DNA of 64,000 nt from Liolophura sinensis (lineage: Eukaryota; Mollusca; Polyplacophora; Chitonida; Chitonidae), in the NCBI RefSeq assembly GCF_032854445.1, contig NC_088296.1, positions 8,530,706-8,594,705 on the forward strand, written 5' to 3'. Position numbers and translations under genes: made by a program. Of this stretch, positions 24,120 through 63,304 are shown in pieces. Position 1 is the first letter of the stretch, and every line of letters begins with the position of its first letter. The notes beneath the pieces were generated by a model. The model was not told the DNA's origin. It made no database searches and was given only the letters and a program-made list of their open reading frames with translations.

Positions 24120-24198
24120 ATGAATCGGTCTACTCGCTGTTGTTGCTGGATACAGATGCTGACGTTTGTAATGATTTCTATGGCCACATTGTCCAAGG
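24120..24198 (+). CDS. R1 exon 1: signal peptide
   Basis: ATG opens MNRSTRCCCWIQMLTFVMIS followed by MATLSK, a basic N-terminus and hydrophobic core typical of a secretion signal. The donor AAGG/GTAAGT leaves phase 1, matching the next exon. Confidence 0.75.
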
Positions 24199-27100
24199 GT
24201 AAGTATTCTTACATAGTTCTCATTCAGTCCAATCTAATTTTTTTTGTATATTACCATCTAGCAGTCAAACAGCCAAGATATTAAGAGGCGTAGCAAAATG
24301 TTCATAACACTGATTAACTATTGTGTGATGGAAATCAAAGATTTTTGCATTTATTATTTCCGTTTTCTAATTCCTGGCCTATTGTATGGGAGTTATTTTA
24401 GTGCTCAGTATTGCTCTAGATTCGTTTTCATGAGTTCTGTGCGGCGCATGTGTGAAAAAAGATACCAGAGGAAATAATTGTGTTAAAGCCGTAGTTTAAT
24501 ATCTGTGGCTTTCGTTTGACCTAGCGTTGAATTCATGAGGTGGTGTTCCATGTAATGACAACACATAATTTAGAATAATTCTAAACGAGCTATCTCTAAA
24601 AATTGCAAATCACATTCCTGCATTTTATGTTCACCTGCTTTACTTAAGTCACACTGCTAAGAACATACTGGTATATTTCCCTGGTCTCTGCCCAGTTTCC
24701 TCCCAATATAATGCTGGTCACTGTCGTATAAATGAAACATTCTTGAGCACGGCGTAAAACATCAAAACGAATAAATGAATCAAAGCATAAATAAATAGTA
24801 CATATAAGTAATCCGTAATACCTGTAATCCGACAGCTTCGCTTTGATTGACTTTGAAGATATTTGAAAGTGTTTTATTAAAAGAGCATTAATGGCGATAT
24901 TCGTATCCTACTCGCAGTCTTAGTCTCACTCGTCTATTCCAAGTCGACAATGGCAATGTAGAACAATGCAACCTACAGAATGTAATTAAACAGCACAGAC
25001 GGTATAAAAGCTGACCAATGGTCACACATAGCCGGTGAATCACGGCCTCTCGTCACTTTTTCTCAGTTAATGTTTGATACTTACTGCTGATAGACTAATA
25101 GCTCTATCGTGAATTAGGATACATCCCTTGTCACATCCACAAATATTTTCTTTCCAACGCAATGCCAAATAAAACATGATATCACGCTGTTGAGAGTCGC
25201 CGAAATGTCGAGAGATATTGAGTGAAGTCCATATTATTCAGCTTAAGAGTTCAGCCCACCTGTTTTTTGTACTTAACTAGAGCCAAGACATTAACGTTAT
25301 CTCCGAATAGATTAAAATAATACAATACAAATTAAAATAATAAAAATAATTAATTTCCGGTTATGCAGAAACTGAAAGTTAGATCCGTTGTGTGCGAGCG
25401 CAATTTTTCTCAGATGCATTCATGCACTATTCGGCTGCTATGTCACCTGACTTCCGTTGTGCATACAAAACGTAGTAAGTTCATGACAAAAGCTTACGAA
25501 CACGGTTGCTGTTCATGCATGACCTATTATAGACGTTATTTCATTGGGGTTGTAGTGTCTGATGTCTTCCTGCATTATATTTCGGTGCAGCAGCACTTCG
25601 GCTGCATAGGCTCGCACTGCCACAAGACATAATATATGTACACACATCTAATGACACCTCGTCGTCGTATGACTGACACAGTATGGCGATAACCTCAAGC
25701 ATACAAACATACATACATACTAGGACTAGGTAAAACGCAACGATATCCATTGCAATGCATAGACGTCATTTATATAGAATTACTCATAACGATGCCATGT
25801 CACCACAACTATTATTCACATAATATGTATACGAACGAATCAGACAGTGGGGGTGATTAAAGGCTAGCGGCAGAATCGTGGTGTGTATAGGGAAACAATG
25901 TAAAAGTATATACACTGGAGTATATAACCAAGAAATGCACTTTCCAAAAATAAACGCCAAAGAAATAATTATGCAAATTGTAAATGAATGTTTGTCAACA
26001 TGTGAGAAGAAGCTGTCAGTTTCAGGTTTCAGTGATGGGAGCAATATATTCTAAGTAAATGTATCCAAAAACATCACGAATTTTTCTGGCAATAAACAGC
26101 AGTCATGAAACACTCACGGATTGTGTCAATATCACATGCAACATCTTACTCAGCTTTAAGTAGCTAGGTAAGCTCCATGCAGATATATATGCGTTCAAAG
26201 TACGGGTTAATGAAAACACATCAATCCGGTATGGGCTCAGGGTTAAAACGATAACACGAATTTAAGCTAAAATACACTTTTAAATGCGCCTGCATTATGA
26301 TAGCTACCCTTATAATTGATAAATTAATTCACTACCTGCACTATTTTGATTTATCTTTATCTCATGACAGGTTAGCTATAGGTGCATATAGATGAACATG
26401 TTCAATTACTGAAGATACCACCGATACTCTGTCATCCCGTGCTTGATTTTCTTTGTGTTTTATAATCATTTTTTTTACGTCTGTTCGCTCCTTCACTTTA
26501 TATTTTTCAAATTCTGTGCCGACTGCTATGCACGCTGTAAGGATGCCAGTCTGTTGGCTAGTCTGTAGTTTTCAAATTCTGTGCCGACTGTTCTGTAAGC
26601 TGTGAGGGTGCGTGTCTGTGGGCTAGTCTATATTTTTCAAATGGTCTAGCCTTATTTCACTTCTTTTCCCCTTTGACATAGTCATGTTTTTGTTTCAATT
26701 CCCCTGCCCGTTGTGTGTGGGGGGGAGGGGGGGCATTACCATTGCAGCTTCTCCGGCTACTAAATGTGGGACGAGACTTTGCGGGTATGGGACATCATGT
26801 CGCCTGTGTGAATATTGCATTTCCTGGGAATACAACTGCTTTTGTCAGAGGGATGACGGCGAGGAACAACGAACGCTTGGATCCGACCACACTCTGTATT
26901 ACTGCTTGCGTAAGTTACAAACTATAATTTATTTATTTATTTGTTTATTTATTTATTATAATAATAATAATAATAACATTATTATTATTATAATATATTA
27001 TTATATATACTAATTATAATTATTATTATTATTTCCACTTTGACGATGGCAATCATGATTAAAGGGTTAATAAAACCGAAATCTTTGGAAACCTTACGTC

Positions 27101-30100
27101 CGCTGTCAGTCAGTTATCGTCAATTTTGCTTCCCTTTAATATGTAGCCTAGCATGTACTAACACGTATCTACAGTCATTTTCTTTCGGGAATTAGAGTTG
27201 ATTGATCTGCATTCTTCCTACGGCCCAAACAGGCAATAACGGAATTAATTATCCTGGTGGTCTAAAGTGATTAAAATTTGGTTTCATTTGTTCAGCTTTG
27301 ACCACGGAGGTTATTTGTACCAATCTTATTTTTACTGTTATAGCTCCGACTTAAAGTCAAGAGGTATGCCAGATGCATTGTGGATTTCGCAGGTTTTACT
27401 CTGAACACTCCGCTTCCCTTCCCCAGTAAATCTACTCGCCGTTTTACAAGTAAAACAGTCTGAAGCTAGACGTTAAACACCAATCAAACACACAACCACA
27501 TAAATAGCATGCAGTTAGGCGTGTTGTGACGTTGGCAGGGATATCCGTTAAAGCTGCTCTGTGGAGGATCTATAACTTTATACTGCGTTACGATACAGTT
27601 CACGTTGACGTTCCGGAACGTGTCGACTGTTAAAGGAACATATGTATGAAGCAAATGTTACAAAAAAGAAAAAGAAACACAAAAACGACCAAGCATGAGA
27701 ATGACCATTCTTTACTTCCTTGTGTATGAGTGACCATAAAACAGTCACGTTCTTTTTAAAAATGTTTTCACGAAACACCTAGACATTAGTATGTATGAGA
27801 AATGCTTTGTACGCTTTCACTTGTCACACAAATAGACTGCTAAGTACGGAGGTATCGTAATAAAGGTATTATAAACTGATATGAAACACATGTAAATACC
27901 TCAGTAATTGGTATTGTGGGAGTACGCCATTTTTATCTATTGTGTAGATGATGTCGTTCTTGTTCCTAGTCGTGGTGTACATTTTTGAAGCTTCAAAATG
28001 CCTTAAAATTACTCTACGAAGTTTATTTCTTTCATATTATATTCTGAATGTTTTATCTTACAGAGAAATGCGGATATCTAGACACTGTATGCGCTGTCAA
28101 CACCACGTGTTCATCGCAAACGATTTCATCTTTTTTTTACACTGGCAGATGTTTCTGTTCTCCTGGATTCAAGCGATCATTGTCCTCAGGACAATGTTTA
28201 GGTAAATACTTTTGTTTCAATATAATCATAACAAAGTGGCAACTAAGACAATCCCTAGCAAGATGGTTAAATCAATTTTAGGTAAAAAATGCGCAGTGAT
28301 GTTAAGCTCATTTTATTAGACGACACCTTTAAAAAAGAACAAAAAAAGTTGTGTTGTCGTCCCATTTAATAGGCTTTCACATGAAAACAATACAAAAGAA
28401 CCAGCCTAGATGTTAACCACAAAGCTAACACGAGGCCTCGTTTGTGGAGGCGGTTCGCGTGCCAACGAATCACAATGACCCAGAAGCCTCTCACCAATGA
28501 GGTCGCTGAATATATGGAAAGGTCTGTTAACAACCTGCGGATTGTCGTGGATTCCCCCCGTGCTCTGCCCTGTTTCCTCCTACTATAATGCTGGCCTTTG
28601 TAGTATAAGTTAAATATTCTTGAGTACGACGTGAAAACACTAATTAAGATGAAACAATTAAATGCAACTATCAGCGCTGCCTGCATTCCGCAACCCACTT
28701 ACACAGGCAGCCCTTCTGTTTAAAGTTGAGCGAAGATTTGGTGCTTCAAATGAAATCTTTCCGCGTTGACATAAAATAGCACCGAGATACCATTCACATA
28801 AAAGTAAATTGAAGAATATATCTTCAAAGCCCCGGCCGTGAGATTGATATCAGGTTAAGCAAATTTGTTCATGAAAAAAATTGTTAATCCGTTGAGAAAT
28901 GGTCATAAACACCAAAGACATCAAATGGATCTCTTTCTTCAACATGGTTTGATCTCTGTTTGTACTAAATTGGTGACCAACGCTTTACTTTCAGCTGATA
29001 CGTATACAACTACTTCAGGTCAACACACATCAATGAAAACAGCTTCAACCACCGGCGATCCATTCAAACGTGAGTACAGCTGGTTTGGTGTGGCAAACGT
29101 TAGTCAACATAGCTGTATATGTGTTGGTCATTTCCATACAGATCATCTCGTATACGGTGTGTAATTCACACGGACAACCGCTCTGACCCGCCCAATTGCT
29201 CAGTTTGGTAGAGCGTCCGCTTCGGGGGCTGTAGATTCACAGTCAATCCTGGGTCGGGCCGCATCCAAGTGTAGGGTCTGAAAAGAGGAAGTTGTAGCTT
29301 CCTAGCTTGGCGTTCAGCATGAAGGGCATAGTGCAACGACTGGTTGACCCGTATCGGTATAATGGCTCGGGTGGCGCGGCTTACTTGCCTTCGGTAAATG
29401 GTCTCACTGAAGCAGCACTTAATAAAAGAGCTGTTAAAATTCGTCCGGCAACAAACACATTACACACACTCTAAGGGACCTTTCGTCGTCATATGACTGT
29501 AACACTGTAAAGTCCCACCATAAGTACTCACCCACAAACCCTATAACTCTACATGCACCTTGCTTGTCGGATATGGAGCCATGTCTTTTGGTTGTATTTC
29601 ACATGTTTTCGTCTTAGACGCAATGACAAGCCTCTTGATTGTGTCTAATGTAAAACATACAGGCAAGTCTTGTGATTATATCTCACATTCGTGCTCCTTA
29701 GACATAACGGAAAATTCTTATGCTTGGGATGCCTTGTTACTGTATCTCGCTTTTTTCCTTGATAGACATGCTGACAATCCCTGCTATTGTATCTGGCTGT
29801 TTTCCTTGGTAGACATGCTGCCATTCCTTGTTATTGTATCTCGCTTTTTTCCTTGATAGACATGCTGTCATTCTTTGTTATTGTATCTCGCTTTTTCCCT
29901 TGATAGACATGCTGCCATTCCTTGTTATTGTATCTCGCTTTTTTCCTTGATAGAAATGTTGACATTCCCTGTTATTGAATCACGCTTTTTTCCTTAATAG
30001 ACATGCTGACATTCCCTGTTATTGCATCTAGCTTTTTTCCTTGATTGACATGCTGGCATGCCTTGTGTTTTTGCATCCCATACTCATGCTTGTTAGACAT

Positions 30101-33100
30101 TCCGACATGTCTTAAGATTGTATCTAACCACTGCGAGGTGAAAATTATGTAATATGTAATTATGTATTAGGTACATTTTAGTCTTTGACATGTGCTGTTG
30201 CAAAACAAAACACATCTGATGTTGCAAAACTAAACACATCGGGTGTTGCAAAACTAAACACATCTGCTGTTGTACAACTAAGCGCTTCTGCTGTTGCAAA
30301 AACAAACACATGCTTAGTTTATGCCTTGTCAGGTAAATTTGTATGACAAACACGCTTTTGATAGCAACGAGACATCGATAGATATAACGCTACTCTTTTA
30401 ATCAAATGGGGTTTTCTTTCCGACTAACAACAGAAACGTTTACAACTACTTCAAGCCAACCTACATCACTGAAAACAACTTTAACTGGCGACGAGCCATT
30501 TAAACGTGAGCACATCTGCTTGTGTTCGCCACACGTTAGTCAAGGTCGCTGTATATTTCAGTTATTTCCATGAATAAACTCTTTGCTGTAGTTATTCTCT
30601 TTAATGGACTCCTTGAGCTCCAAAGCATTACATGTGACATCCATCACCCCGACAAGCCCAGTGATTCTACGCACATGGTTCACTGGTACATCTACAGAGT
30701 GATAATTTGTGTACATTTTAACATAAAATATTACATTATTTATATACTGCTGGTACGCAAATTAGGTGGATGTGCGCTGTTGCCAGAACATGGTGTAGTA
30801 TTCGTAAGCACTTTCTTTTTGAGAGCACCATGTTCGCCAGACATAATGTATATTACATTTATGACAGGCACAGTGATTGTAACTCATATTTATGTTTGAT
30901 ACACACACTGGCCAACATAGTATATCACCGCCACGCTTCTTATCACACGTATCTTTAAGGCGACGAATAATGTTGTGTTTAAGACAACATGTGGGTACAG
31001 TGTGGCTTACAAGATGAAATCCAATCTCTGACATCTGATTTGTATAACGAAGCACAGGGTGTCTGCTATATCCTCAGTACATTTAGTTTATGCCTTCTCA
31101 GGCAAATTTGTAAGGAAGAAAAATGTCTCTGATGGAAAAGTTCAAACACACATTTCAAACGTGACGTGACGCGTAATAAAAAATAAATCCTCATTCGGCC
31201 AATTTCTTCCCCACTTTTACTTGCAATGGCCAACCTTATACTTTCAGCAGAGACGTATACAAGTATTTCAAGCCAACATACATCAATGGAAATAGTTTCA
31301 TCAACAGACAAGCCCTTGAAACGTGAGTTCGCCTAATTTTGCTTGACAAATTTTAGTCAACACAGCTGTAGGTAACAAACACTCCCTCTTGGACAATCTC
31401 GTGTACAGTGTGTAATGGGCTTACCTATTGTTTTCAAACTCTGGATGTGTACTTAAATAAACCCCTCGAGTTCTGAAACAGAGAACTTGACATTAATTAC
31501 ACGGGCTCATTGAAGCTACATGTTTCTGGCACTGTGCTTGCCAGATATACCGGCATGCCATGTCACATCTATGTCTGCTATTCATTTCTTTCTGACGTTC
31601 TCGTTTAGATCAACTGATCAACGTTCTATTTTCAGCTGAAACGTATGCATCTACTTTAAGTCAACCTGCATCCACTTTAAGTCAACCTGCATCCACTTTA
31701 AGTCAAACTGCAAACACTTTGAGTCAATCTGCAGCCACTGCAAGTCAACCTACATCACTGAAAACATTTTCAACTACCGAAAAGCCATCTAAGCGTGAGT
31801 ACATCCCGTTTTTCCGGACATACGTTAAGCAAGGTAGCCACCGCTTGTAGTATGTAATATGCAAATGATCGCTAAGTATATCCGCGGCTACACATCTTTC
31901 CTCCAAATGTGTTAAAAACACACCAGTCAGTGCCATCATAGTGCAGATTTTGTGAACTACAAAACTATACAGAAACAGTGACTTCAGTGAGATCGTATTA
32001 CAAAGGATACAACAATTCCTTTGCTCTCATCAATTTATTTTTCTGCCTACAGCCGATGGAAAGCTGTGCAAGGAAAGTCCACGACATTCTAGCGGGGTTG
32101 TTCGATGGTCAAGCAGGGTATGTTGCTTGTCTTTGCACATACAGCATAAGCGTTTGACTGTACAGCTCGCTCAGCCTCACCATTTGACTGCGGGTAGTTT
32201 GGTGTTGAAATTGTGTGAATACTGTACTCAACACAAAAGAATGTAAATACTTTTGATGAAAATTGGGGACCATTATCTGTCCTTAGAGTTTGGGAAATTC
32301 CGTGACGGCACATCTGTGACTTAACAGCGTTCACAGTGGCAGGTGTACTGAGATCGGTCAGTTTGTCAAACCTAATAAATTCGGAAAAAAATCTACTGTA
32401 ACACGTAGTTGTTGTCTTCCCAGTGGAAAATGTCAGACGTAACTTCACACCAGGGGAAATCTAGAGCTGTTGTCGGACCGAGTGTTTCCTTTAGCTGTTT
32501 GTTTTGGACATTCTTACACTCAGGACTGTCACTAACATTCTTTTTTACCTGTTGCGCCTTTCCAGGCCAATTAAGTACTTCTTTGACACGTAGGTGACAT
32601 TTAGTGGTACCCATGTTACGCTCGTGTTTTGGGAGGATCATATTAGCCCTCGTATTGGAAGGTACCACGGTTTAAGGCCATTAAACAGGATGCCGTCGAT
32701 GACTGAAAACTCGTTGCTAATGTTCTAATACTGTCGAATAGAGTGTGGGGTTTCTGGTTCGGTGTCTGGCCAACGTTTAAAGATCAAAAAATGCAGTTCA
32801 TTTACAGTTCATTTCTGAGACTGAGTGTATCTAGATGGTGTCGCAGCTATGTAGTGGAACATATTGATCAACACTGGTGGAATGTCTAGCTCAGTATCTG
32901 GGAGATTTCTACAGCTTAACGCATCGCCAACGGCAATGTCCTCCCCGTGCTTGTACCAGACTGTTAAATCGCACGGTTGCAGACGCAACATCATTGTCTG
33001 AAGTCTCATCGGAGCAGACTGGAGTGGTCTGGAGAAGATCGACTGTGGTCACTATCAACTATCACTGGCTTTCCAAATAGGCAATAACGGAACTTCTTGC

Positions 33101-36100
33101 ATGAGTGGACAATAGCTAGAGTCTCTTTTTCTATCGGTGTATATTTCCTCTCTGTGGATGTCAGTGCACCAAATGTGTATGCGGTGGGGTGGCCATCTTC
33201 AAGCAGGACTCCACCTACTGCATAACTACTGATATTACACTGTATGATGACGTCTTTTTTTTTGTGTCATAATTGGCCGAAACTGGTGCACTGCTACACA
33301 AATTCCTCAGTTTTTCAAGGCTGGTTTGTCGTTCACCACAACTCGTCCGACCTGGATGTCAACTATCAGTGCTCTTGCACTCGAGATGCCTTCAGGCATG
33401 TTATCCATAATAAGTTGGAAAAGTTATGAAACCGATTTAATACCAAACGGCAGTCGTAGCCACCTATATCTGCCTATGGGGTATTCATTGTTGTCAACAA
33501 AAGTTGCCAACTTGATATGTGAGAAGCCAGAATTGGTATCTGATAAAGAGAAAATATTTGCGTTGGAAATGACGAAACTATCTCTTCTACGATTCGAATT
33601 GCATAGTGTTTACATCGTGTCGCCTTGTTCAGGTCCTTCGGATAGATGCAAATCCGGAATTGGTCATTTTTGACAACAAGGTACCATCGAGCGTACCCAG
33701 TCTGTGGGTTCTACAACCTGACTCATATGTCCTGAACTCTCCACCTCTTTCAGCTTTTCAATTTTTCAATTTTCTAACCAGTCAGTGCTTTAGGCTGACG
33801 CCTGAGACCATGCACTCGTTGGGAGGGAGTATTTCTTCTGCCCAGTCTGTGGTAATACTATATGGTAGGAGTGATTGATCAGCACCTGTATCTATCTGCG
33901 TGGTCAGTGTTTATGAGCCTACATGTATTTCTTCTGACCAGTTTGTGGTAATACTGTATGCATGAGTGATTGAGCAGCACCTGTATCTATCTGCATGGTC
34001 AGTGTTTGTGAGCCTACATGTATTTCTTCTGATCAGTTTGTGGTAATACTGTATGCATGAGTGATTGAGCAGCACCTGTATCTATCTGCATGGTCCGCGT
34101 TTGTGAGCCTACATGTATTTCTTCTGACCAGTTTGTGGTAATATTGTATGCACGAGTGACTGAGCAGCAACTGTATCTATCTGCATGGTCAGTGTTTGCG
34201 AGTCTGCGTGTATTTCTTCTGACCAGTTTGTGGTAATACTCTATGCATGAGTGATTGAGCAGCACCTGTATCTATCTGCATGGTCAGTGTTTGTGAGCCT
34301 ACATGTATTTCTTCCGACCAGTTTGTGGTAATACTGTATGGTATGGGTGACTGAACAGCACCTGTATCTATCTGCATGGTCAGCGTTTGTGAGCCTACGT
34401 GTATTTCTTCCGTCCAGTTTGTGGTAATACCGTATGGTCTGAGTGACTGAACAGCACCTGTATCTATCTGCATGGTCAGTGTTTGTGAGTCTACGTGTAT
34501 TTCTTCTGACCAGTCTGTGGTAATACTGTATGGCATGGGTGACTGAACAGCACCTGTATCTATCTGCATGGTCAGTGTTTGTGAGCCTACGTGTATTTCT
34601 TCTGACCAGTCTGTGGTAATACTGTATGGTATGGGTGACTGAACAGCACCTGTATCTATCTGCATGGTCAGTGTTTGTGAATCTACGTGTATTTCTTCTG
34701 ACCAGTCTGTGGCAATACTGTATGGTATGGGTGACTGAACAGCACCTGTATCTATCTGCATGGTCGGTGTTTGTGAGCCTCCGTGTATTTCTTCTGTAAA
34801 GTTGAACGGTTTCATAGCTCAGGAGTATGATGACAGCAAGGTTAAATGTCAAGTCATCACCTTTTTTCAGACATCCCTCACGCATTGTAGTATTACATGT
34901 GCCAGTAATGGTGGCGTCACGTGACATACGCCAAATCATTATAGCCACAGTCTTTCACAAGCAATCTCAGATCAGTGACGAAGTTGTCTCACTTTTCTCC
35001 GGGTTGTTGGCGACGTTTTACAAAGTCTACGGCTTCTCGGATTTCATTACGTTTTGCATGGTACTGCCTACTCACCGTATTTATTACACACTCCATCCAG
35101 AGTGTGATTCTCGCCGCTGCATGAGTCCATGTGAAAGCGTGACACACTTCTCTGTCTTTCTCTTCAATAAATGTGAGCCCCCATTGCTGCATGAAGCGTT
35201 TCAACTCCTTATCTAATATCGTCGGCCTGCCCGTTCATACTGGGCTTGCTACAGGGTGACTCTGCCATGGCTAAACAACACTATTTCGGGTCAATGGAGA
35301 TTTTAGCGTGCAGTTTCTGGAAACACAACGTGTGATTTTCAGAGTAAGACAGTCTTTCACAAACAGATCTACGGCAAGGTCAGTGTTGTGGCATTTTCCC
35401 AACTGCGGCGAGTCAACATAGTGTTGTTGTTGTAAGCTTATATCACTACACCGATAGACGGTATACGTCGTTTTCGTTTGGTGAGCGATTATTGACTATG
35501 GCAGGATAGGCGGGAATGGTTTGCAGAACAATATCAAGCACAATTTCTGACACCATGTAACGTGAAAACTGGTACTATCAAAGACAAACACGACAACATC
35601 TGTTGACGGGCACTACCGTAAAGCACTGTCACCAATGAATCGTAATAATATCATTTTTAGACCCATTGACGATTGGTCTGGCGGCAGGATTGGGTGGAGT
35701 GATACTTCTGGCCTTAGTCGTCATTTCTGCTGTTGTTGTTGTAAGGCAAGTACACTTCAGAACCTTCCCGAATCTTATTATATGCAGATTTGTCTCTGGA
35801 AATACAATTTGTAGTGATGTAAGAAATGATAACTTGCCTCCGCGTATTTGTATTGAAATGTAAAGAAAACATAAGAGTGACATGAAATTCAGAAGAATAA
35901 GTGTGAAACGTTGGCTGTTAGTGCGGTCTTTAATATATTTGTCGAATTTTACTTTTTTGCTATAATGATTTAAATGAGTCTGTCCCACATTTTAATAAAT
36001 ACATTTGTCTGTCAGAATAAATTTATCTATCTGTCAGAACTAACACTATCCGGGGCATTCCTTAACCCTTAAACGTGATAAATTTAAAACAGCATCGATG

Positions 36101-37445: not shown

Positions 37446-37449
37446 ATCA

Positions 37450-38330: not shown

Positions 38331-38334
38331 CAGT

Positions 38335-39165: not shown

Positions 39166-39169
39166 GCTT

Positions 39170-40080: not shown

Positions 40081-40081
40081 A

Positions 40082-40348: not shown

Positions 40349-40380
40349 ATATATGTATATATAAATATACATAGTCACTT

Positions 40381-40580
40381 NNNNNNNNNNNNNNNNNNNN
40401 NNNNNNNNNNNNNNNNNNNNNNNNNNNNNNNNNNNNNNNNNNNNNNNNNNNNNNNNNNNNNNNNNNNNNNNNNNNNNNNNNNNNNNNNNNNNNNNNNNNN
40501 NNNNNNNNNNNNNNNNNNNNNNNNNNNNNNNNNNNNNNNNNNNNNNNNNNNNNNNNNNNNNNNNNNNNNNNNNNNNNNNN
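40381..40580. other. Assembly gap (200 N)
   Basis: Exactly 200 Ns, which may be a placeholder of unknown true size. It abuts a (TA)n tract at 40590-40692. The missing 5' exons of R2 could lie here. Confidence 0.95.
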
Positions 40581-40587
40581 TATTTTT

Positions 40588-43800: not shown

Positions 43801-44975
43801 CAAAGCAGTAACGACATGATGGATTGCACTTTTACCCCTCCGCGACATAGCAGTGACGAGCATAATCAATCCCACTTTTACCTCTCAGCGACATAGCAGT
43901 GATGAACATATTGGATCACACTTTTACCTCTCAGCGACATAGCAGTAACTAGCACATTAAAAGACACTTTTACTTCTGCAGAGACATAGCAGTAAAGAGC
44001 ATATTGGATCACACTTTTACCTCTGTAGACACATGACAGTAATGAGTACATTTTATCAGGCTTTTACCTCTGCCGAGACATAGCAGTATGGAGCATAGTG
44101 GATCACACTTTTACCTCTCAGTGACATAGCAGTAGCGAGCACATTAAAACACACTTTTACCTCTGCAGAGACATAGCAGTAAAGAGCATATTGGAGTTTA
44201 CCTCTCAATGACATAGCAGTAACGAGCACATTGAAACACACTTTTACCTCTGCTAAGACATAGCAGTAAAGAGCATGTTGGATCACAATTTTACCTCTGT
44301 ATGCACATAACAGTAACAAGTATATTTTATCACGCCTTTACCTCTGCAGAGACATAGCAGTAAAGAACATACTGGATCACACGTTTACCTCTCAATGACA
44401 TAGCAGTAACGAGCACATTGAAACACACTTTTACCTCTGCTAAGACATAGTAGTAAAGAGCATGTTGGATCACAATTTTACCTCTGTATGCACATAACAG
44501 TAACAAGAATATTTTATCACGCTTTTACCTCTGCAGAGACATAGCAGTAAAGAACATAGTTAATCACACATTTACCTCTCAGTGATATAGCACTATCGAG
44601 CACATTAAAACACACTTTTACCTCTGCAGACACATAGCAGTAAAGAGCAAATTGGATTACACTTTTACCTCTTAGTGACATAGCAGTGACGAGCACATTG
44701 AAACACACTTTTATCCCTTAGCGACATAGCAGTAATGAGCATATTCGATCACACTTTTACCTCTGTAGACACATAACAGCAACAGGTATATTTTATCACG
44801 CTTTTACCTCTGCACAGACATAGCAGTAAAGAGCACACTTTTACCATTAAGTGACATAGCAGTAACGAGCAGACAAAAAGCTGTAGACAAATAGCTGTAG
44901 ACAAATAGCAGTGGCGACATATTGAGTTACACTTTAACTCTTCAGCGACACAGCAGTAACGAGCCTTTTGGATCA
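40835..44975. repeat. 4.1-kb satellite, 46-47-bp unit in two alternating types
   Basis: Roughly 88 tandem units. Type A reads GAGCACATTGAAACACACTT then TTACCTCTGCAGAGACATAGCA; type B reads GAGCATATTGGATCACACTT then TTACCTCTCAGTGACATAGCA. In many stretches A and B alternate, giving a ~93-bp higher-order dimer. Four nearly identical B-like units at 41045-41235 look recently homogenised. Minus-strand frames such as CYVSAEVKVCFNVL follow the repeat and are not considered genes. Confidence 0.95.
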
Positions 44976-51200: not shown

Positions 51201-52298
51201 CGCAAAGAAATACCCCGGCGAATTTACTGTGTCCGCGTAGAGTGTCAGCTCCAGCTGTTTTCAGCGATCGAGATGGTCGAGCTGACAAATCAAACACCAC
51301 GGAACTGTGTTGAACTGTGACATTTTGTTAGTTGCTGATGTTTTAATATCGTCAGCATATTTCGAGGGCGATTAAGTTTCCTACCGGCGCAAAAAAAAAA
51401 AAAAAAAACCCGCCTAGTGTTTTCCTGGCTTAACCAGTGAAATCTGATTTCCTGTCAGTTTACTTCCGTCAGAGCTGTAATCCAACTCTTCCTCTTAAGG
51501 TCTAGGTAGAAGCAACTCAGGCAGAACTTAGCACCTTGATTTAGGCAGAAATAGATGAAAAAGTTTAACGAAAATGCAACCATGTTAACTAAAACTCATT
51601 GCACGTCATTTGCCCAGAATTGCTCCAAACGTTGCATTACAAATGTAGCGTTCGAAATGTTTTCTCACAGGTGTGGAAATTGCAGGTGTCACGATGGCAA
51701 CGCTGGGGTACCAACATCCCGGAAATGTTCAGGAGTAACTGACACAATCTATCCACCTTCGGCAGGTCTGCCAGATATAGTGAACGAACGTGCTCATTTC
51801 CGGCGTAGTATAAATGGGAACAGTCACGTGGTGTTCCACGCCGGAAACTTGGATTCAACCCTAACCAACGATACGCGTGGTGTTTATAGCTTGGCAGGTC
51901 AACTCGAAGACACCGGGAGTCTCGAAACAAACGGAGTGTATTCGACCCCCAACATGTGTGTCGCAGATACTGCAGCGAAGTCACCCGTTTTTTCCAACGG
52001 CTCGATGTACGACATGTTGAGTAAACAGAGCGTGGTTCCATCCGCCGCCTCTGCGCATCCCACAGTAAACAACACCTTGTATGACACGAATTGCAGACTG
52101 GTCAATGACAGAGAAAGAAATATTCAGCCCGGATCCACCGGAACCGGAAGAATTTTTTGGACCGATGACGTCCGGGAGAACACAACCTATGATTCAATTA
52201 GAACAACAGACAGAGCGCCAGAAGATTTTTCCTTTTTAGGGCAACGAAAGAATCGTGTTGATTATCCTTACGATAAGCTCCAACTGCCGAAGGTATAA
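45117..52298 (+). CDS. R2: R1-like receptor, 3' seven exons (5' end not found)
   Basis: Exons 45117-45203, 45630-45719, 47964-48050, 48509-48598, 49955-50044, 50800-50887 and 51671-52298 join in one frame of 386 codons including the stop. They encode a Thr/Pro-rich stalk, a single transmembrane helix (GLVIGLAVGIGGAVLLVCIV...) and a 208-residue tail. The tail shares motif order with R1: VYSLAGQ, MYDMLSK, NNTLYDTN, TYDSIRT, YPYDKLQLP. The first exon needs a phase-1 donor upstream, yet no signal-peptide or EGF exon is visible between 37.5 and 45.1 kb. Either these exons are in the 200-N gap or lost, or the exons are an alternative 3' module spliced from R1. Lying 3 kb from the convergent R3 end, it completes a three-member cluster. 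Confidence 0.7.
45630..45719 (+). CDS. R2 stalk exon 2a
   Basis: Acceptor TTGTCTTTAG, donor GTAG/GTGAGT, 30 codons, phase 1-1. It reads AHKSGTLIPVTEAPEEVSTR then PSRERDSSAV. A second copy is at 48509-48598. Confidence 0.75.
46300..46457. repeat. Short outlying array of the 47-bp satellite
   Basis: About three diverged units (GAGCATGTTGGATTACATTT, CTCTGTAGAGACATAGCAGT) lie between the two duplicated exon blocks of R2. Confidence 0.8.
47310..47565 (+). mobile_element. SINE, full-length but diverged (family 1)
   Basis: CAGGTGGTTAGTATGGCAGC, ATGACCCGGGAGCCTGTCGC and TCTTGAGTACGGCGTAAAAG, in an R2 intron. Confidence 0.8.
47964..48050 (+). CDS. R2 stalk exon 1b (duplicate of 1a)
   Basis: Acceptor TTTCATTTTAG, donor ACAG/GTGTAT, phase 1-1. 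It contains HDSTTRITQTKVQAVTITQE then TGDEKTPT. It differs from exon 1a at eight of the 28 complete codons by amino acid and at three codons silently. Confidence 0.75.
48320..48358. repeat. Possible isolated monomer of the 60-kb satellite family (minus)
   Basis: AATTTCACCGGTTACGTGTG is the complement of CACACGTAACC...GTAAAA in the end units near 60750. Confidence 0.35.
48509..48598 (+). CDS. R2 stalk exon 2b (duplicate of 2a)
   Basis: Acceptor GTCTTTAG, donor CTAG/GTGAGT, phase 1-1. It reads AHKSGTPIPVTEAPEEVSTR then PSRERNSSAL. Only three bases differ from exon 2a, and all three change the amino acid. Confidence 0.75.
49402..49643. mobile_element. MITE-like element with terminal inverted repeats
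   Basis: The left end CAGGGCCCACTGTTTCAAAA and the complement of the right end, CTGGGCCCAGTTGTTCAGAA, form imperfect inverted ends of about 23 bp around 242 bp of non-coding DNA. It lies in an R2 intron. Confidence 0.65.
49955..50044 (+). CDS. R2 stalk exon 3
   Basis: Acceptor TTTCTTTCAG, donor GAAA/GTGAGA, 30 codons, phase 1-1. It reads VSDSPATIPGTDAPDVTSIQ then PSDEHNNSRE. Its ending resembles exons 2a/2b (TRPSRERNSS), so it is a likely distant copy. Confidence 0.7.
50200..50290. repeat. ~22-bp minisatellite
   Basis: Four copies of a unit like CTGAGTGCCCAGAGGAAGCC. Confidence 0.8.
50368..50455 (-). mobile_element. SINE fragment (family 1)
   Basis: GCGACGGCGGCC, ACCCACGACCATCTGCAGGT and GCTGCAAGACCTTC. 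Confidence 0.75.
50800..50887 (+). CDS. R2 transmembrane exon
   Basis: Acceptor TTTTGCTGCAG, donor GTACG/GTAAGT, 88 bases, phase 1-2. It reads NSDGLVIGLAVGIGGAVLLV then CIVLTVVVV. It aligns with the R1 TM exon (TIGLAAGLGGVILL), including the glycines at the start of the helix. Confidence 0.85.
51055..51431. mobile_element. MITE-like element with terminal inverted repeats
   Basis: Left end AAGCCGGGGACACACTAAGC; the complement of the right end reads AAGCCAGGAAAACACTAGGC, about 25 bp of imperfect inverted ends around 377 bp. An A18 run sits inside the right end. It lies in the last intron of R2. Confidence 0.65.
51671..52298 (+). CDS. R2 cytoplasmic tail exon
   Basis: Acceptor TTTTCTCACAG; 628 bases to the stop, phase 2 entry. 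The frame runs open upstream of the acceptor too, but the phase-2 entry fits the TM exon donor. It begins RCGNCRCHDGN rather than with a run of basic residues, unlike R1 and R3. Tyrosine motifs are GVYSLAGQ, GVYSTPN, MYDMLSK, NTLYDTN, TYDSIRT and YPYDKLQL. Confidence 0.85.
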
Positions 52299-52299
52299 C

Positions 52300-53385: not shown

Positions 53386-53387
53386 AA

Positions 53388-53665: not shown

Positions 53666-54099
53666 AGTCAAGACACGCGGGATTAAAAACCCGGTCGGCT
53701 AATACCAAACAATGAAAAAAAAAACTGTACTTTGTGATGCTTGACGCTCAGCACTGAGGGGTTAGAGCAAGGAAACAGGGCCCACTTTGAAAGTACGATA
53801 ATGGCATATATATGACAATGGTATGGCAATGGTGACGTACAAAATATCGTACGACAAATGTACGATAAAAATGTGATGTCACACCAGATTGGATCGAAGA
53901 TGCCACCGTACATAAAAGTTAAATGCCATGTTAAGGCAAGTCAAAAAATCAAACAAACAAAAACGTAAAAAAACAAAAACAACGATATATCGAAACAATT
54001 TTTAGTACAGTTTTGCAAGGCTCTGACTTTGTCACAACTCTTATGTTGGCTTTGACGACACACTCGTGATTTTTTTACGCTAGCGGGCAATGTTAACAA

Positions 54100-54225
54100 T
54101 AAAAGAATCAATAAATTATTGTGGTTTTGCGCCAAATTGGCAGTATTTCCGCCATATCGTGGCGAGGAAACCGGAGTGCTCCAGGAAAACCACTGACCTT
54201 TGCCCAGCTACTGACAAACTTTCTC
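54100..54225 (-). mobile_element. SINE-like fragment, different subfamily
   Basis: TTTTGCGCCAAATTGGCAGT, GGCGAGGAAACCGGAG and ACTGACAAACTTTCTCACGA. The layout is like family 1 but the sequence differs. Confidence 0.5.
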
Positions 54226-55339: not shown

Positions 55340-55889
55340 TTAGTTCACCTCATACAGAGTGTTATAATCGTCAGGTTGAACGAGTTCATTCGTTGACAGC
55401 TTCACATTTTGTGTGGACAAAGTTTTATAATCGTCAGGCTGAACCGAGTAATCAGTCGCAGCATTCACGTTTGGTCTACACAATATGTCGTACGTAGAAC
55501 TTCCACCCTGATTCTCACATGACTGAGCTAATGTTTTCCCTTTTTGCTTTTCCTTGTTTGCGGGTATGTGATGGTTTGAATACAGCTCCCTGTGGACATC
55601 TGGCTGAGGGAATCGTGGCAAGGCTTCCTCAGTCGTGTTAGTGTAGATAACACTAATATCCGCGTCTGAGTTCAAAAGCGCATGCGCCGTAACTTCGCCG
55701 TTCTCGTATGTGGTTCCAGTGGGTCGCACAACGTCTGATGAGAGGCGCTGACTTCCGGACTGTGTGATTGCTGAGTCATCCCCTTCGTCTTCCGGCAATG
55801 AAAGATTAACGGCATCAACTCTACCAGTGTCAGTTCGTAAATCCTTCCCGAATGTTGCTCCATCTGTTTTCCGCCGCCGTTTTCGCTTC
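55340..55889 (-). CDS. R3 cytoplasmic tail exon
   Basis: Acceptor TTCTTGAAATAG; 550 bases to TAA, phase 2 entry. It starts with the basic KRKRRRKTDG. Three near-repeats near the end, TDYSVQPDDYKTL, NELVQPDDYNTL and YEVN, suggest recent internal duplication of a QPDDYxTL motif. No enzymatic domain is seen. Confidence 0.9.
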
Positions 55890-58800
55890 CTATTTCAAGA
55901 AAAACAGACGGTAAAATTGTGTTTTGAAGTGAAATCGACAATTGCTTCTCTATTCATTGATCTCTCAGCAATTGTGCAAGTCAAAGCTCTTCGCTTCGAC
56001 CGGTCGCGGCCTCCATTAGAACTGTTGCTAGTTTGGATGCAGCCTTAAGTCAAGAGGTTTTCGAGGTACATGAAGAACGTTGTGGTTTATTGCTCGCACC
56101 CCAGTTTCCTCTATTCATAAAACTGTCCGCCGTTTCATGTTAACTATTCTTATTGTAGCCCGCTACAGTGCAAATCTCTAATTTCCCGTGGTATCTTTAA
56201 CACATATATTCTTCTCACACTGACGCCGCCCCGCTGACGGCGCAGTGGTACTTGGCGTTATTTAAAGTACCTAATGTGTTCCACTTTGAACTTCTGCAGA
56301 CATAATATTGCGCCCATACGAATGCATTTTGCACTCAGATTGGACAAACAGGTAGTCCGATAACCCCTTTTTTTCTACCTAATGTTCGTCATGATGATTT
56401 CAAATAAATGTTCCAACTTTAACAAAGATCTGAGTGTTAAAAATGTAGTGAAAATGTTTACATATATCACAGTGATAATGTAGTGCAATTGTATATAGCA
56501 TCTTTGAGGAAAAAGTAAAATATGGAGTTATTTTAAATGGTACGTGGTGTATTTCGGAGACCCGCATTTTCTCTTTCATTCACTTATTCAAGGTCCCTTT
56601 TCTTATTACAGTGTGTAACTCTGTTTCAATCCGGAAGTTTTGACACTTGAGGCTGTGACATCGTGGTGACGTTCCTTTGTGACCATCCCTTGACGTTAAG
56701 GGGCGTTTATTAACGGGCGGGTATATTTGATAGTTTATATTCAAAATTGAGTATTCACATTTAGTTTAGTGGAGCATTTGAGGTGGTGAATCCCTTGTGA
56801 TCCACTGTGAAAACTTTTCAATATTGTATACACTAGCTATGTTAAAATTTACTTATTAGTCATCGCATGGAGTTCAACGATGACAGCTCAGCAAAAAAGG
56901 ACGACGTTGTTTACATTCGTGTATCACGTGAACCGTCATCTCCAGAGTCATGTTCACGATCAAATAGGTTAATGCCAGAAATTCTATAAAATCTATGTAA
57001 AGGGGCACTTTAAATAAATTAGCATTCGGACAGGTATGACACAATCTAAAATTCCCAAAGTGCTCTTGAAAGAAACTTTGTAACTGGTTCAAACAAGTTA
57101 ACCATTTGTTCACTAGTGATTTATTTACTGAGTGAATAGTGCTTACCTTGCACAAAATATACCAACAAAAACAAGCACCACCAGAATGACACCCCCAGTC
57201 ATTCCCAAGGGCAAAGTTGTCGTCAGAGGTTCGGAAGCTGTCGCCAGGGGCACGGAAGCTGTCGAGGGCAAACATTGGAAGGATTAATATGCAGCAAGTT
57301 AGTTAGAATTAAATGTGATGCATGATTTTTAAACGGTTTGCTTTAATAACCTATTTCTGGGTCATTGCTGTGTTGCTTTTTGTTTTCTTAAGTTGATGGC
57401 TACTTAAAGGAGAACAGCAGCAAAATTTTCTTCAATTTTGGGGGTAGAATAGACTTCGTCTTTGTGTTTGTCGTGTAAGCCGATTCCGCTGAACTGTGTT
57501 TCGTGCCGAGTCAAATACCAAGAATGCACAGAATTCGAGGAATTTGACGAGGTGTTAAAGTTTGTTCTACCCCCTAAAATGAAGAAAATAAGTCACAATT
57601 CCATGCTAGTTTTTGCCGCCGTTCTCCTTTACTCCCTCAGCAGAGGTCATGCATTTTGGACCAATCAACGGCAAGCTTTGGCCATTGCAGGATACTTCAC
57701 AGCTGCGAATCTATGACGGCGTGTTTTACTCTTGCGTGATGTTGCAATGTAAAAGTTTACAATACTTATATTATGACGTCATTCAGCTGAGCTTAGAGTG
57801 GAACGTCATGAAACAAATGTTTCTCTTCAACGCCATGGCATCTGGGTGTGAAATATCAAAAATGTCAACAACAAAAAAGCGAGGTCTGTAAACTGTGCCA
57901 TGTAACACTTTTATCACTAAACGAAATGTCGACAGTTCTGCATTAATTAAAGCATGAAAATAAACCTAACAAGTACATTTAAACAAACTTAAATTCTTTT
58001 AGAAATAAACAGCGGAATTGTAATTTATCTGATATTGTTCCGGGAGGATGTGGGATCGACTACTAAAAATAATATAAGCATGATGTCATTTATCATATTG
58101 TTCAATCATGTGCCTGATAATCCAAACAGTAAATATTCAGGCACTTGACCTTCTACCCAGCCACGCTAATGTGTATAACGTTGTTAAACTAGGGTTATTT
58201 TGTCCTCAAGCCGGCCACTACATATCCGGGAGAAACTCCGTGTTAAAGGATAGAATACCAATGCTATGTTCCACCGTCGGACAGACAGAACGATCAGCTA
58301 TGAGATTGCTCTGATGTTACATGCAGGGTTTGCTAAATTTCGCTCGACCAAGGATGGCCCCCAATCAACATCAGTGCGCACTCCACTTAAAAAGATGATT
58401 CACTTGCCGTGGCAGTTTATCACGGCGTTTGAGACAAATGTATTCATCAAATACCTTTACAGGGACTATAATTCACAGACACTTATGTTCCGTACCTCTT
58501 CGTCTGTCGGTTTACGGCATAGGTCCGCCATTATACTTGTCGGTGCTCAGACCCACTATATTCAGAGCCTAAACATATCTGAAAAGAATCCGTAACTGCA
58601 ATCCCGGCTACTAATAAGCGAGACCTCAGTCCAAGCATGGGAAGGAATAACAACACTCTGCCAGAGTTAAAAAAAAAATAAAAAATAATAAATAAAAAAA
58701 ACATCTCACAACAACACGTTTCCATCCGAAATCGTAACGGTGATTTTTTTTTTGTGGCGAGTGTAGGGAAATTATCTCCCATTTATCATTTTGTAAATAA

Positions 58801-61800
58801 GGTGCACAAAAATATGAACTAGGACATTTCTTTCAGCCATATGCCTTGGAATGAATATATTTTTTTGGAAATTTCAAAGCCATGCGAGGTAACAAATTTG
58901 TATACATATCAAACTTATAATTTCGCCTCGGTAGTGTAAGGTGGTACGCGCGATACTGTTTCACGTAAGGTGTACAATTTAGCAATTTTTTTATTTTTTA
59001 TTTTAACATTGGATGATAATTGTCACAAGAAGCTCTACTACTCCAACGGTAATGCTATCCACCGTCGTATAAGTAAAATAAGGCGTAACACACTTAAACA
59101 AATAAGTATCTTTAAGGGCTTGCAATAAGGCTATATAGTGAATTTCTTGTCTTAGTTACCCTACGTATTATGTGTATTTCTGTTGACAGAATGGCCAGAA
59201 TGGTCATTTGATTGGTGTTTTTAGCCGGTGTTGTATAAGTGAAATTTTCCCGAGTACACCATAAATCAAGCCGCCGTTGTATAAGTGAAATTTTCCCGAG
59301 TACACCATAAATCAAGCCGCCGTTGTATAAGTGAAATTTTCCCGAGTACACCATAAATCACCACTGAAATAAACAAAACATGATCATTCTTAATAGAGAA
59401 AAAATACATCCACCGACTACACCGAGGGGCTTTTAACTACATTCTGAGACCAAGAGGTTATCTCAATATAAAGGTATAAAATACCTGAAAATAAAAGTAT
59501 AACAGTGAAAGCCGGCGAATGAGTACACATAATCTGTGAAATCCCACATGATGTCAATTAAGCTCGGTTAAGGTTTTATTTAGTCAATGTAAATTCTGAA
59601 ATGGTAGCATATATTCAAAACGTTGTGCGTAAAAGAGGGAAAGAAACTAGGAGAAATACACCATATAGGGCTCTGGGGTATCATCATTGTATGCAACAGC
59701 CTATGTGCAGGTTACTTGTATATGTATATGCAATTGCCGTATATTAAGTCACAGTAGCCACAATGTGGCTGAAATATTTCCACTGACGCGTTAAGGTAGA
59801 TCATTCATTATGCGGTTATTCTGATGTCAAGTCGTTTTGTTGTCAATCACTTTTAATATGTGCCCCTGTGCAGATTGGAATGTTAAGCTGTGTGGCCTAC
59901 ATTAAAGATGTATTTAATTTGGTAATATCGGTACTCTAATTACGGTATTTATCTTCAACGCATCCGAATTGGTCACAATCTGTTCTCGTATGCACATGTT
60001 CACAATGGCATGTTTAGGTACCCTGGGTGTTGATACACCCAGAATTGTTACCACATATGGCTGATCTTGCACTGCATTCGTCCATATCTGACCATTTAAA
60101 TATGCATGTGAAGACTACAATATCGATAGTAGAACCAGAGCAGTGACGACAATGTGATAGTCACACAGCATCGGTAGTAGAACCAGAGCAGTGACGACAA
60201 TGTGATAGACACACAGCATCGGTAGTAAAACCAGAGCAGTGACGACAATGTGATAGACACACAGCATAGAGAGCAAAATCAGAGCAGTGACGACAATGTG
60301 ATAGACACACAGCATAGAGGGTAAAACCAGAGCAGTGACGACAGTGTGATAGACATACAGCATAGAGAGTAAAATGAGAGCAGTGACGACAGTGTGATAG
60401 ACATACAGCATAGAGAGTAAAATGAGAGCAGTGACGAAAATGTGATAGACACACAGCATCGGTAGTAAAACCAGAGCAGTAACGACATTGTGATAGACAC
60501 ACAGCATAGAGAGTAAAATCAGAGCAGTGACGACAGTGTGATAGACATACAACATCGGTAGTAAATCCAGAGCAGTGACGACAATGTGATAGACACACAG
60601 CATCGGTAGTAAAACCAGAGCAGTGACGATAATGTGGTAGACACACAACATCGATAGTAAAACAAGAGCAGTGACGACAGTGTGATAGTTGCACGGCATA
60701 GAGAGTAAAACCAGAGCAGTGACGACAGTGTTATAGTTGGCAAATTGTCACACGTAACCAGTAAAACTAGGGCAGTGACGACAGTGTGACAGTTGGCCAG
60801 TGATTGTACACAATGGGTGAAAACTAAAGAAAATTTACGTCAGTCAGTATTTTATTCTTGATCATATTACAGTTCTGAATCCCAGAATTCAGGCTGTTAT
60901 ATTAAATAAAGTTTGTTACCTCCTATGGGTTTGCCTCATTACAAATGTGTTGTCTAATTCTGATTTTAGCCAAAAATGATGCTCTATAGTACACGCTTTC
61001 AGAACCCTTTGGCGTTATCTCATTGCACCTCTCTTAATTCAAACAGCCCTGATATAGAAGATAAACACTTTGCCGATGCCAATGTCATAAGTCGCGGCGT
61101 AAGAATTTGTACATTATAGCTACTTTTGATATTGTGTGAAGAGTTCATAAAACTTATATACTAAGATAAAATAGCATGATTGTTTTTTCCAGATCACTTG
61201 CTTGTACAAGTTATATGACGACACATTGTTTATCCATAAAAATTTGTTTGTCTACAAAACACTCAGTTATTTCTTGTGAATGCACCACTGAAGATATCCC
61301 TAATCACGAGCAGTTTTTACTTTACTTACATGGAACTTCTGGGTTAGAAAAAGGAAGTGAATAAAACGTTCCTGGACTGAGCTTTTTGTTGCTTTTTATT
61401 TGAAGCACACATCCCTTTTTGCCTCAGGTAGACTTTACCGTTACGATAGGGTTATCATCGCGTGGCTATTTCCACACAAACTGCATATACAGAAGCCACT
61501 GTCTTTGAGAACACTTTTATTACATGTATACATTGACCAGATAAACATGTATGGAAAATCGAAACATTTTTTTTTTAACTTTGCCTACTGCATTGCTCCA
61601 TTAGAAAATTTCATACAATGTCACAAAGTCTATCATGTTTCTCTTGGAACAAGAATCACGTGACAATGGCGTAATTACATCAATCGCGTTTATTAGTACC
61701 CTTTACAGACATTTAGCACACATCGTCCTTTTTTTTTCTCTTTTCTCACCGCGCTCAACCTATCAATCGACAGGATTCTCCCACAGTACCCATGGTAGAT

Positions 61801-63304
61801 AGTACCCTATGACAGTTTCATTTTCTGTAATGGCACTTGTTCATTTTGATACTTTGTTGCTCGACAACGACGGTATGTGCTAAATGTTTGCTAAACGTAA
61901 TGTTGCATACTCCTCGACAGACATGGGATAATCTATGCATAAAGCATAACAATACATCGTGTTTTACACATAGTTTTGCACTGTGACCTTGCGATGCCAT
62001 CATATGACTAGACCAGTATAAATAGACAAGGGGTATGACCCAGTAATATGTGATTAAAATTCATATATGGAAGCCGATAAGGGACTTTCTATAGCTCTCT
62101 TAGCAACATCGATGTCTCGCTACTTCGCAATCTCTACATCCTTGCTTCGCCACATTGCTGCTAGCTACGTCGCTCTCCCCCTAATTCTCGGTGGCGCTAC
62201 CTTGCCACTAGCTACGTCGCTGTTTGTCCATCACGCTGTCTCTCTTTGTCGCTGTCTCGCTACCTTCAGGCTAGGTACCTGTCTAACTCTACGTCTGGCC
62301 ACACCTCTGTCTTGCTTTCTGTCTCTCAATCCCGTTAACTCTCTGTTTTGTCACCTCGCCGTGTCTCTACCTCGCGGTCTATCTATCTGTCTGACCGGCT
62401 ACGTCGCTGTTTGGACACCGCGCTAATTCGCTACCTTTTTGCTAGCTACCTCTCTATCCCTCTCCCTGGCTGGAAAAAGACAATATCCATCAGTAAGGAA
62501 TGCTATATGCTTCCATAACCCAACTCACCAAGGCAATGACCGAATGGACTTCTGACGAATCCGCGAGAGCACTCGCAAGATGCAGATTCAGCAGAGGTTG
62601 TTACACACGTGGTATTAGCTGGACAAGTTGGGTCACTTACTCCACATAATTCTGCAAAGAAAAAGCTTGTAAAATTTTCACACGCACAACACACATGTAT
62701 ACACATATACAGGCTGATTCTTCCAGGCTATCAGATATGCGCTTGTTATCAAATATGGAAAACTAAATCAAAGTAGTAATAAAAAGGAAGAAATAATTAT
62801 GTAGATGACAATAGGTACAAATAATAAACCCATTCACAGTATACGCGGAACAGATAAAGGAATCTCATAAATTCTTTATACATGCGCGTTTGTCCTCGGT
62901 TTGATTAGAAAACTCAACCCAAATGAATATATACATTTTCGCTTTGACTTTGGTTACAATTCATGCAGTGTCGTCTGCTCTTTGGAATGGTCATAGCTTA
63001 CCAGTGAAACAAAAACTGGTTAAACTATAATCGTGCAATCTGTTAATTTCCAATAAAATCGAGTAACTGTTAACCAGCCAATCGGCAAGGCAAATCACAA
63101 AATGTATCAATCGAAAACATTATATTTATCCCCTATGAACAGTACAACGGAGAAAGAATTTTTACTCACTTTTACACCATACCAGAACGGCTGTTAGCCC
63201 TAGCTTTATATGGCGGGCGTGGCCATTTTCACAAACACAAACCCCTTCACAAGACGCCGCATATCCACAAATGAACGGACCACACGTGGTAGCTAAAGTC
63301 TCGT
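55340..63304 (-). CDS. R3: R1-like EGF receptor on the opposite strand (first exon missing)
   Basis: Exons 63304-63170, 62651-62529, 57258-57147 and 55889-55340 join in one frame of 306 codons including the stop. The product has two six-cysteine EGF-like modules, a short Thr/Pro stalk, one transmembrane helix, the strongly basic RKRKRRRK and a 182-residue tail. The tail aligns with R1 in TYENGEV-to-end order: LYSNHHIPANKEKQ (R1 LYSNHKIAENKGKQ), TYDILCRPN (R1 VYNVLSKPN) and DDYNTLYEVN (R1 DDYNTLYAVN). YENG, YTNT and YSNH fit a Y-x-N adaptor-SH2 pattern. The signal-peptide exon, which must end in phase 1, is not seen before the right edge. Extra stalk exons may exist in the 5.3-kb intron but none was found. 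It converges on R2. Confidence 0.8.
55890..57146. other. R3 last intron, nothing recognised
   Basis: No repeat or exon identified. Confidence 0.4.
57147..57258 (-). CDS. R3 stalk plus transmembrane exon
   Basis: Acceptor CCCTCGACAG, donor GCAAG/GTAAGC, 112 bases, phase 1-2. It reads ASVPLATASEPLTTTLPLGM then TGGVILVVLVFVGIFCA. A Thr/Pro stalk leads into one helix, so this exon does the job of a stalk exon and the TM exon of R1/R2. Confidence 0.85.
57260..59030. other. R3 intron, no exon seen
   Basis: Plus-strand frames near 57462-57891 and 58266-58595 lack splice or domain support. Poly-A/T-rich tract at 58665-58700. Confidence 0.4.
59035..59105 (+). mobile_element. SINE tail fragment (family 1)
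   Basis: CACCGTCGTATAAGTAAAAT and GGCGTAACACACTTAAACAA. Confidence 0.6.
59224..59362. repeat. 46-bp tandem triplication derived from a SINE tail
   Basis: Three nearly identical units CCGTTGTATAAGTGAAATTT then TCCCGAGTACACCATAAATC. The unit matches the terminal part of the family-1 SINE, so a SINE end has been amplified in tandem. Confidence 0.9.
60118..60800. repeat. 48-bp satellite
   Basis: About fourteen units of CCAGAGCAGTGACGACAATG then TGATAGACACACAGCATCGG. The period is 16 codons, so the minus strand is open in all three frames (for example HCRHCSGFTTDAVCLS), a repeat effect, not coding. It lies in the R3 intron. Confidence 0.95.
60801..62060. other. R3 intron, no exon seen
   Basis: No recognisable repeat or splice-bounded exon. 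Confidence 0.4.
62067..62470. repeat. Pyrimidine-rich degenerate repeat
   Basis: Irregular repetition of GCTAGCTACGTCGCT, CTGTCTCGCTACC and similar words. The 119-codon plus-strand frame here (62067-62426) has the biased composition of the repeat and no domain. Confidence 0.6.
62529..62651 (-). CDS. R3 EGF-like module 2
   Basis: Acceptor TTCTTTGCAG, donor CTTG/GTGAGT, 41 codons, phase 1-1. It reads LCGVSDPTCPANTTC, then ASCECSRGFVRSPFGHCL, with six cysteines in the same spacing class as R1 exon 3. Confidence 0.9.
63170..63304 (-). CDS. R3 EGF-like module 1
   Basis: Acceptor TTGATACAG, donor AAAA/GTGAGT, 45 codons, phase 1-1. It reads DETLATTCGPFICGYAASCE then GVCVCENGHARH and VWCK, with six cysteines. 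CGPFICGYAASC matches CGTRLCGYGTSC in R1 exon 2. This copy lacks two of the cysteines that R1 has. Confidence 0.85.

Follow-up and report, generated by a model that had tools for sequence, protein, structure and literature searches.

Receptor-like loci in the window

We analysed a window of 64,000 nucleotides from Liolophura sinensis (contig NC_088296.1, here C2, positions 8530706-8594705), taken from one 609-Mb assembly of 632 contigs, and read exons locally over 251 kb in and around it. The window holds three paralogous loci, R1 and R2 on the forward strand and R3 on the reverse strand, and the loci A, B and R4 lie beside it. The three appear to encode single-pass cell-surface proteins, predicted from their sequence, whose outer ends are variable while their inner tails keep likely signalling tyrosines.

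R1 (24120-37445, +) reads from ATG to stop through nine exons with matching phases, as a preliminary description of this DNA had claimed, and encodes 531 amino acids without an internal stop. The signal exon has phase 0-1, EGF1, EGF2 and four stalk exons are 1-1, the transmembrane (TM) exon is 1-2, and the tail is entered in phase 2. All eight acceptors are AG; the donors are seven GT and one GC, at the TM exon (AG|GCAAGT). Exon 1 (24120..24198) supplies the ATG and the signal peptide, followed by the modules EGF1, with eight cysteines (26748..26909), and EGF2, with six (28064..28201). Four stalk exons come next: a, rich in serine and threonine (28995..29069), b (30434..30505), c (31248..31322) and d (31636..31794), the last with 21-bp repeats inside. 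Aligned stretches of these exons are 77-85% alike in DNA. The gene is completed by the TM exon (35661..35745) and the tail exon with its stop (36695..37445). The tail has 12 tyrosines, in motifs that include YVNV, YEEV, YNLA, YSNH, YNVL, YNTL, YAVN, YSTI and YDTL. The intron preceding the TM exon contains a 96-bp tandem repeat (33829-34796; ten copies, 92% matches).

R2 (+) comprises three stalk exons in phase 1-1 (45630..45719, 48509..48598 and 49955..50044), the first two 97% identical in DNA, a 1-2 TM exon (50800..50887) and a tail exon with a stop (51671..52298), which is open over 208 codons and has eight tyrosines. An EGF or signal exon was sought for R2 and not found. A 200-N assembly gap (40381-40580) lies upstream and may be the cause of this truncated reading. 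About 4 kb of a 47-bp satellite (40880-44835) also lies between R1 and R2.

R3 (-) has an EGF pair, both exons 1-1: EGF1 (63170..63304, its end worked out by hand), 42% identical to EGF1 of R4, and EGF2 (62529..62651). Joined, the two score 30.6 bits against the Pfam family EGF_Mua-3 (cut-off 27). The EGF_CA exon at 59950..60095 has decayed, with a TAA in its frame, and matches the second EGF_CA exon of R4 (60% of amino acids over 42, 76% DNA identity). A 1-2 TM exon with a short serine/threonine stretch (57147..57258) precedes the tail exon (55340..55889), which is open over 182 codons, has eight tyrosines and ends in DDYNTLYEVN before its stop. One strict scan, not control-run on R1, found no signal exon for R3. 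Beyond the short stretch in the TM exon, a duplicated mucin-like stalk was unseen in R3, where serine/threonine exons were not searched for systematically.

The common exon order and phases ascribed to these loci therefore hold in part: the 1-2 TM exon and the phase-2 tail recur in all three, but R2 lacks recognised EGF and signal exons and R3 a signal exon. Likewise, the proposed combination of an EGF pair with a duplicated mucin-like stalk is complete in R1 only; R2 has the stalk without a found EGF module, and R3 the pair without a seen duplicated stalk.

Kinship rests on protein alignments, with E values from a small fragment database: TM of R1 and R2 (56% over 25 amino acids, 2e-6), EGF2 of R1 and R3 (43% over 44, 2.8e-6), and tails of R1 and R3 (41% over 71, 1.5e-8) and of R1 and R2 (38% over 52, 1.2e-4). 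EGF1 of R1 aligns at 41% with that of B, 32% with that of R3 and 43% with that of L049. As had been stated, no family could be named: Pfam gave no match over its cut-off in R1, its EGF2 module included, or in the tails of R2, R3 and the related locus L029, and recognised nothing in EGF1 of R1. Neither kinase nor protein tyrosine phosphatase families were matched in R1 or in those three tails, and a PDB sequence search and Foldseek assigned R1 to no named family.

A larger family on contig C2

A whole-genome search with the R1 tail returned 28 places with E values of 0.01 or less; all but one lie on C2. The L029 tail, from the main cluster, returned 48 rows that resolve into 39 places, a lower bound for large families by the search's own caveat: 37 lie on C2 (7.55-14.54 Mb), where the stretch at 9.9-10.6 Mb alone accounts for 20, and the other two are on C4. 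R1, R2 and R3 count among the 39; the tails of A and R4, found by local reading only, do not. A main-cluster tail used as query recovered R2 at E 3.7e-7 and R3 at E 4.6e-7. The family has thus expanded on one contig, and the "cluster of three" of the preliminary description proved too small; R1, R2 and R3 are outlying members of one larger gene family. Among 16 tail loci compared, the closest pairs are 98-99.9% identical in DNA, with L041 and L042 at 99.9%.

Three genes beyond the surroundings of the window were read upstream of their tails, those ending at L039, L029 and L028. The L050/L039 gene, the best-read one of the main cluster, comprises EGF1, EGF2, three EGF_CA exons, TM and tail and fits the rule of 1-1, 1-2 and phase 2, with a GC donor at EGF2; its signal exon was sought and not found. 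Its EGF_CA modules score 80.3 bits over three stretches in Pfam. The L029 gene follows this order with an extra upstream EGF1/EGF2 pair, and no AG adjoins its third EGF_CA module. The best non-self match of the R1 tail is L028, and the gene to which this tail belongs has EGF1, EGF2, stretches rich in serine, threonine and proline, and TM. The TM of R1 is 64% identical over 25 amino acids to that of the main-cluster gene L048. Given the exon orders of the main-cluster genes read, the stalk of R1 and R2 occupies the EGF_CA position of other members. It can no longer be regarded as the hallmark of the family, since EGF_CA exons fill that place in the main-cluster genes read, and R3 and A show decayed ones.

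A tree of 23 tails joined R1 to L028 (91/68) and R3 to L044-L046 (83/70). A tree had been suggested at the outset; both groupings were flagged as possible long-branch joins and are not used here.

Tyrosine motifs and the readings they permit

The tails were aligned as a set of 23, from which L034 was left out because of a stop inside its frame. The motifs run in the order Y[EV]N[IV], NPTYPVLPDVLG, YEE[VI]DLPP, YSLAG, LYSNHKIxxNKAKQ, YNVLSKPxVKP, DNYNTLY, YDTTY and a terminal EYDELKxxKV; R2, R3, B and some other tails carry part of the string only. YxxL/I occurs in all 23 tails, YxN in 19, YEE[VI] in 17, NPxY in nine and YxxM in none. The YNxL/YNTL pair is spaced by 16-18 residues in 21 of 23 tails, and its second tyrosine is asparagine in R2. 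The whole YNVL...YNTLY unit is doubled in L039-L042. In L047 and L052 the LYSNHKI-type unit is repeated (one copy was read in L059) and the YNVL/YNTLY pair is absent; these tails form a subtype, perhaps a different signalling class.

Tyrosines are conserved beyond their surroundings. In 12 chosen distant pairs they were kept in 142 of 208 cells (68%), against 1136 of 4234 (27%) for other residues; as these pairs overlap, the P value is not to be taken literally. In 18 chosen tail pairs, the NG86 ratio of nonsynonymous to synonymous substitution rates (dN/dS) was 0.21-0.87, with every point estimate below 1. Motif counts were compared with shuffled sequences in nine of the 23 tails. The description of the window tails as tyrosine-rich was borne out for R1 (P 0.003) and R3 (0.006), whereas R2 (0.34) is unremarkable taken alone.

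Most simply, the tail would be a phosphotyrosine docking strip. pYEEI is a suitable site for SH2 domains of the Src type, YxN for Grb2 and paired YxxL for tandem-SH2 proteins. We think it rather probable that the loci belong to an expanded family of single-pass receptors, with outer EGF modules and a tail of ordered tyrosine motifs, that signals through SH2 docking. The outer part would consist of two divergent EGF-like modules, followed by EGF_CA modules (three in the best-read gene) or by the serine/threonine-rich stalk exons of R1 and R2. A ligand bound by the EGF modules would gather the receptors; a Src-type kinase would phosphorylate the tail and stay bound at YEE[VI]; Grb2-type adaptors would dock at the YxN sites; and the YxxL-x17-YxxL pair would recruit a tandem-SH2 protein, of the Syk or SHP type. 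Phosphorylation, partners, ligand and immune use of the family are what we infer from these features. The loci look like a putative family of recognition receptors, with which their expansion, the recent copies and the loss of modules agree. The innate or phagocytic role suggested in the preliminary description is likewise conjectural.

Several observations weigh against this interpretation. No tail of the 23 contains a canonical immunoreceptor tyrosine-based activation motif (ITAM; YxxL/I-x6-12-YxxL/I), and among the window genes YEE[VI] is confined to R1. Motif counts are not clearly above shuffling in three of the nine tails tested (R2, as above, L046 at 0.07 and B at 0.05). Stop codons or short tails mark several tail loci, some of the 39 included. 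The structure model of R1 EGF1 is unusable (predicted local distance difference test score, pLDDT, 48); that of EGF2 reaches pLDDT 76, and its best Foldseek matches, to the EGF protein Pfs25, are weak (E 0.61 and above). Finally, the outer exons cannot be said to change faster at the protein level. Comparison of the L039 gene with the L029 gene gave identities of 42% for EGF1, 53% for EGF2, 55% and 64% for the first and second EGF_CA exons (best cross pairing 75%), 72% for the TM exon and 69% for the tail, with dN/dS of 0.69 in EGF1, 0.45 in EGF2 and 0.45 in the tail. In this one pair the synonymous rate (dS) is also higher in the EGF exons (EGF1 0.71, EGF2 0.87, tail 0.38), and faster protein change outside is therefore not established.

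The strongest competing account, which we still hold to be doubtful, sees in the window copies, for the most part, relics of the 9.9-10.6 Mb cluster that are falling into decay. R2 without recognisable EGF exons, the decayed EGF_CA exon of R3, and the broken exons or early stop of A and B are all consistent with decay. R1, however, keeps an open frame for 531 codons across eight introns that join in phase, no stop interrupts the tails of R2 and R3 over the spans given above, and R2 has perhaps been cut by the assembly gap.

Somewhat less likely, these are ordinary adhesion or developmental receptors duplicated in tandem, which would take no part in the recognition of foreign material. Adhesion proteins often contain EGF_CA modules, and dN/dS stays below 1 not only in the 18 tail pairs but also in the EGF1, EGF2 and in-frame EGF_CA pairs, as such a role would have it. 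Against this, 39 places, very recent copies and visible module loss would be unusual for single-role adhesion genes.

An inhibitory function, about equally unlikely, would conflict only with an activating form of the SH2-docking model: receptors of the type carrying immunoreceptor tyrosine-based inhibitory motifs (ITIMs) would bind a tandem-SH2 phosphatase such as SHP at the wide YxxL pair. The motif [SIVL]xYxx[LIV] is present in 19 of 23 tails, and the spacing is wider than the vertebrate ITAM rule, under which YxxL motifs are paired at 6-12. Yet this strict ITIM is absent from R1, L028, L044 and B, and the frequency of YEE[VI] and YxN suggests that kinases and adaptors bind too.

Returning to the SH2-docking receptor family, a bolder form of it would be a one-chromosome arsenal of recognition receptors in which the outer EGF part diversifies by duplication and exon loss over a shared phosphotyrosine barcode with a stretched ITAM-like pair, an independent paired-tyrosine immune logic. 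We regard this as improbable, and slightly lowered our estimate of it because in the sole pair compared the outer exons exceed the tail in dS as well.

Comparison with known receptor systems

How animals diversify recognition without antibodies is an open question. In snails, clustered genes for single-pass receptors have been tied to parasite resistance, and their inner signalling code is not known; the present family offers a readable tail code kept across strongly diverged copies. Vertebrate ITAM and ITIM receptors share with it paired YxxL motifs and likely Src-type and Grb2-type docking sites, but differ from it in pair spacing (16-18 here) and in its EGF outer part, and no common origin is suggested. 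Draper, CED-1 and MEGF10 are single-pass, EGF-bearing engulfment receptors with YxxL motifs in the tail. By comparison, the genes described here have two to five EGF modules, NPxY in a minority of tails and no YxxL pair at the 6-12 spacing, and no EMI domain was found in R1 or, from EGF1 to TM (its signal region excluded), in the main-cluster gene.

No account of the family turned up in the open-access PubMed Central literature as far as its texts were available, which does not prove that none exists. Nearest, and comparable in kind by analogy, would be the GRC and PTC2 clusters of Biomphalaria glabrata. According to the parts of the papers available, these too are clustered genes for single-pass proteins in a mollusc; GRC proteins have their TM segment more than 50 residues from either end, PTC2 genes have 166-530 codons, and in Grctm6 the outer part is variable and the TM and inner parts less so (PMC4361660, PMC7494358, PMC5310918). 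Fibronectin III domains, present in four of the GRC genes, set them apart, and PTC2 genes are without any known domain. "EGF" does not occur in the full text of any of the three papers, nor "tyrosine" in two of them, and the likeness drawn here is one of description.

In the SudRes1 region of Biomphalaria sudanica, associated with parasite resistance, 10 of 23 genes encode multiple EGF domains, and EGF loss between haplotypes is described, in the portions available (PMC12297450). Three of its EGF genes differ from the present family in encoding single-pass receptors that contain phosphatase and galactose-binding domains; the remaining ones might be comparable to it. EGF-bearing phosphatase receptor clusters in that snail (PMC12297450) raise the very unlikely alternative that our tails are membrane-near parts of SudRes1-like receptor tyrosine phosphatases with missed phosphatase exons, an identity we rejected, as the tail exons of R1, R2, R3 and the main cluster end in stops and PF00102 had no match on C2 among the best 150 of 397 candidates.

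Neighbouring loci and other features

In R4 (-, about 81.4-71.8 kb, numbered as in the window), EGF1 and EGF2 are followed by a pair of intact EGF_CA exons, a TM exon and a tail that is short and carries a single tyrosine. This EGF_CA pair scores 58.3 bits, over the Pfam cut-off; no Pfam cut-off is exceeded by the EGF pair of R1, of R4 or of B. Within an R4 intron (79335-80644, -), units of about 99 bp are repeated in tandem, and part of the R4 EGF2 exon matches this array 14 times, at 84-95%; from its sequence, we read the array as an exon fragment caught up in satellite.

Both A and B lie on the left side (+). In A, a stop interrupts the EGF1 exon and the EGF_CA exon lacks its acceptor AG; EGF2 is also present, and the tail contains SYEEVDLP. 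In B, EGF1 and EGF2 were read together with a tail that contains AYEEIDLPP and YSLTGRF and terminates early, where its relatives L054 (86% identical) and L055 (89%) continue. Additional EGF, stalk and TM exons near the window include C, D and one TM exon at -18 kb.

At the left edge of the window, a scavenger receptor cysteine-rich (SRCR) gene (1-827, -) runs off the stretch, with PF00530 matching 492-827 at 43.3 bits (cut-off 26.1); on visual inspection, a further piece at 2-181 also resembles SRCR. A reverse-transcriptase-like fragment (12305-12610, -) scores 15.2 bits, below the Pfam cut-off. Elsewhere in the genome, among the same best 150 of 397 candidates, tyrosine-phosphatase-domain exons are numerous on C7, C15, C3 and C1, apparently a receptor phosphatase expansion, and none fall on C2. 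That the animal is a mollusc shows in PF14830, the beta-sandwich domain of molluscan-type hemocyanin, which has eight tandem matches at C8:37880506-37891931 (best E 3e-41).

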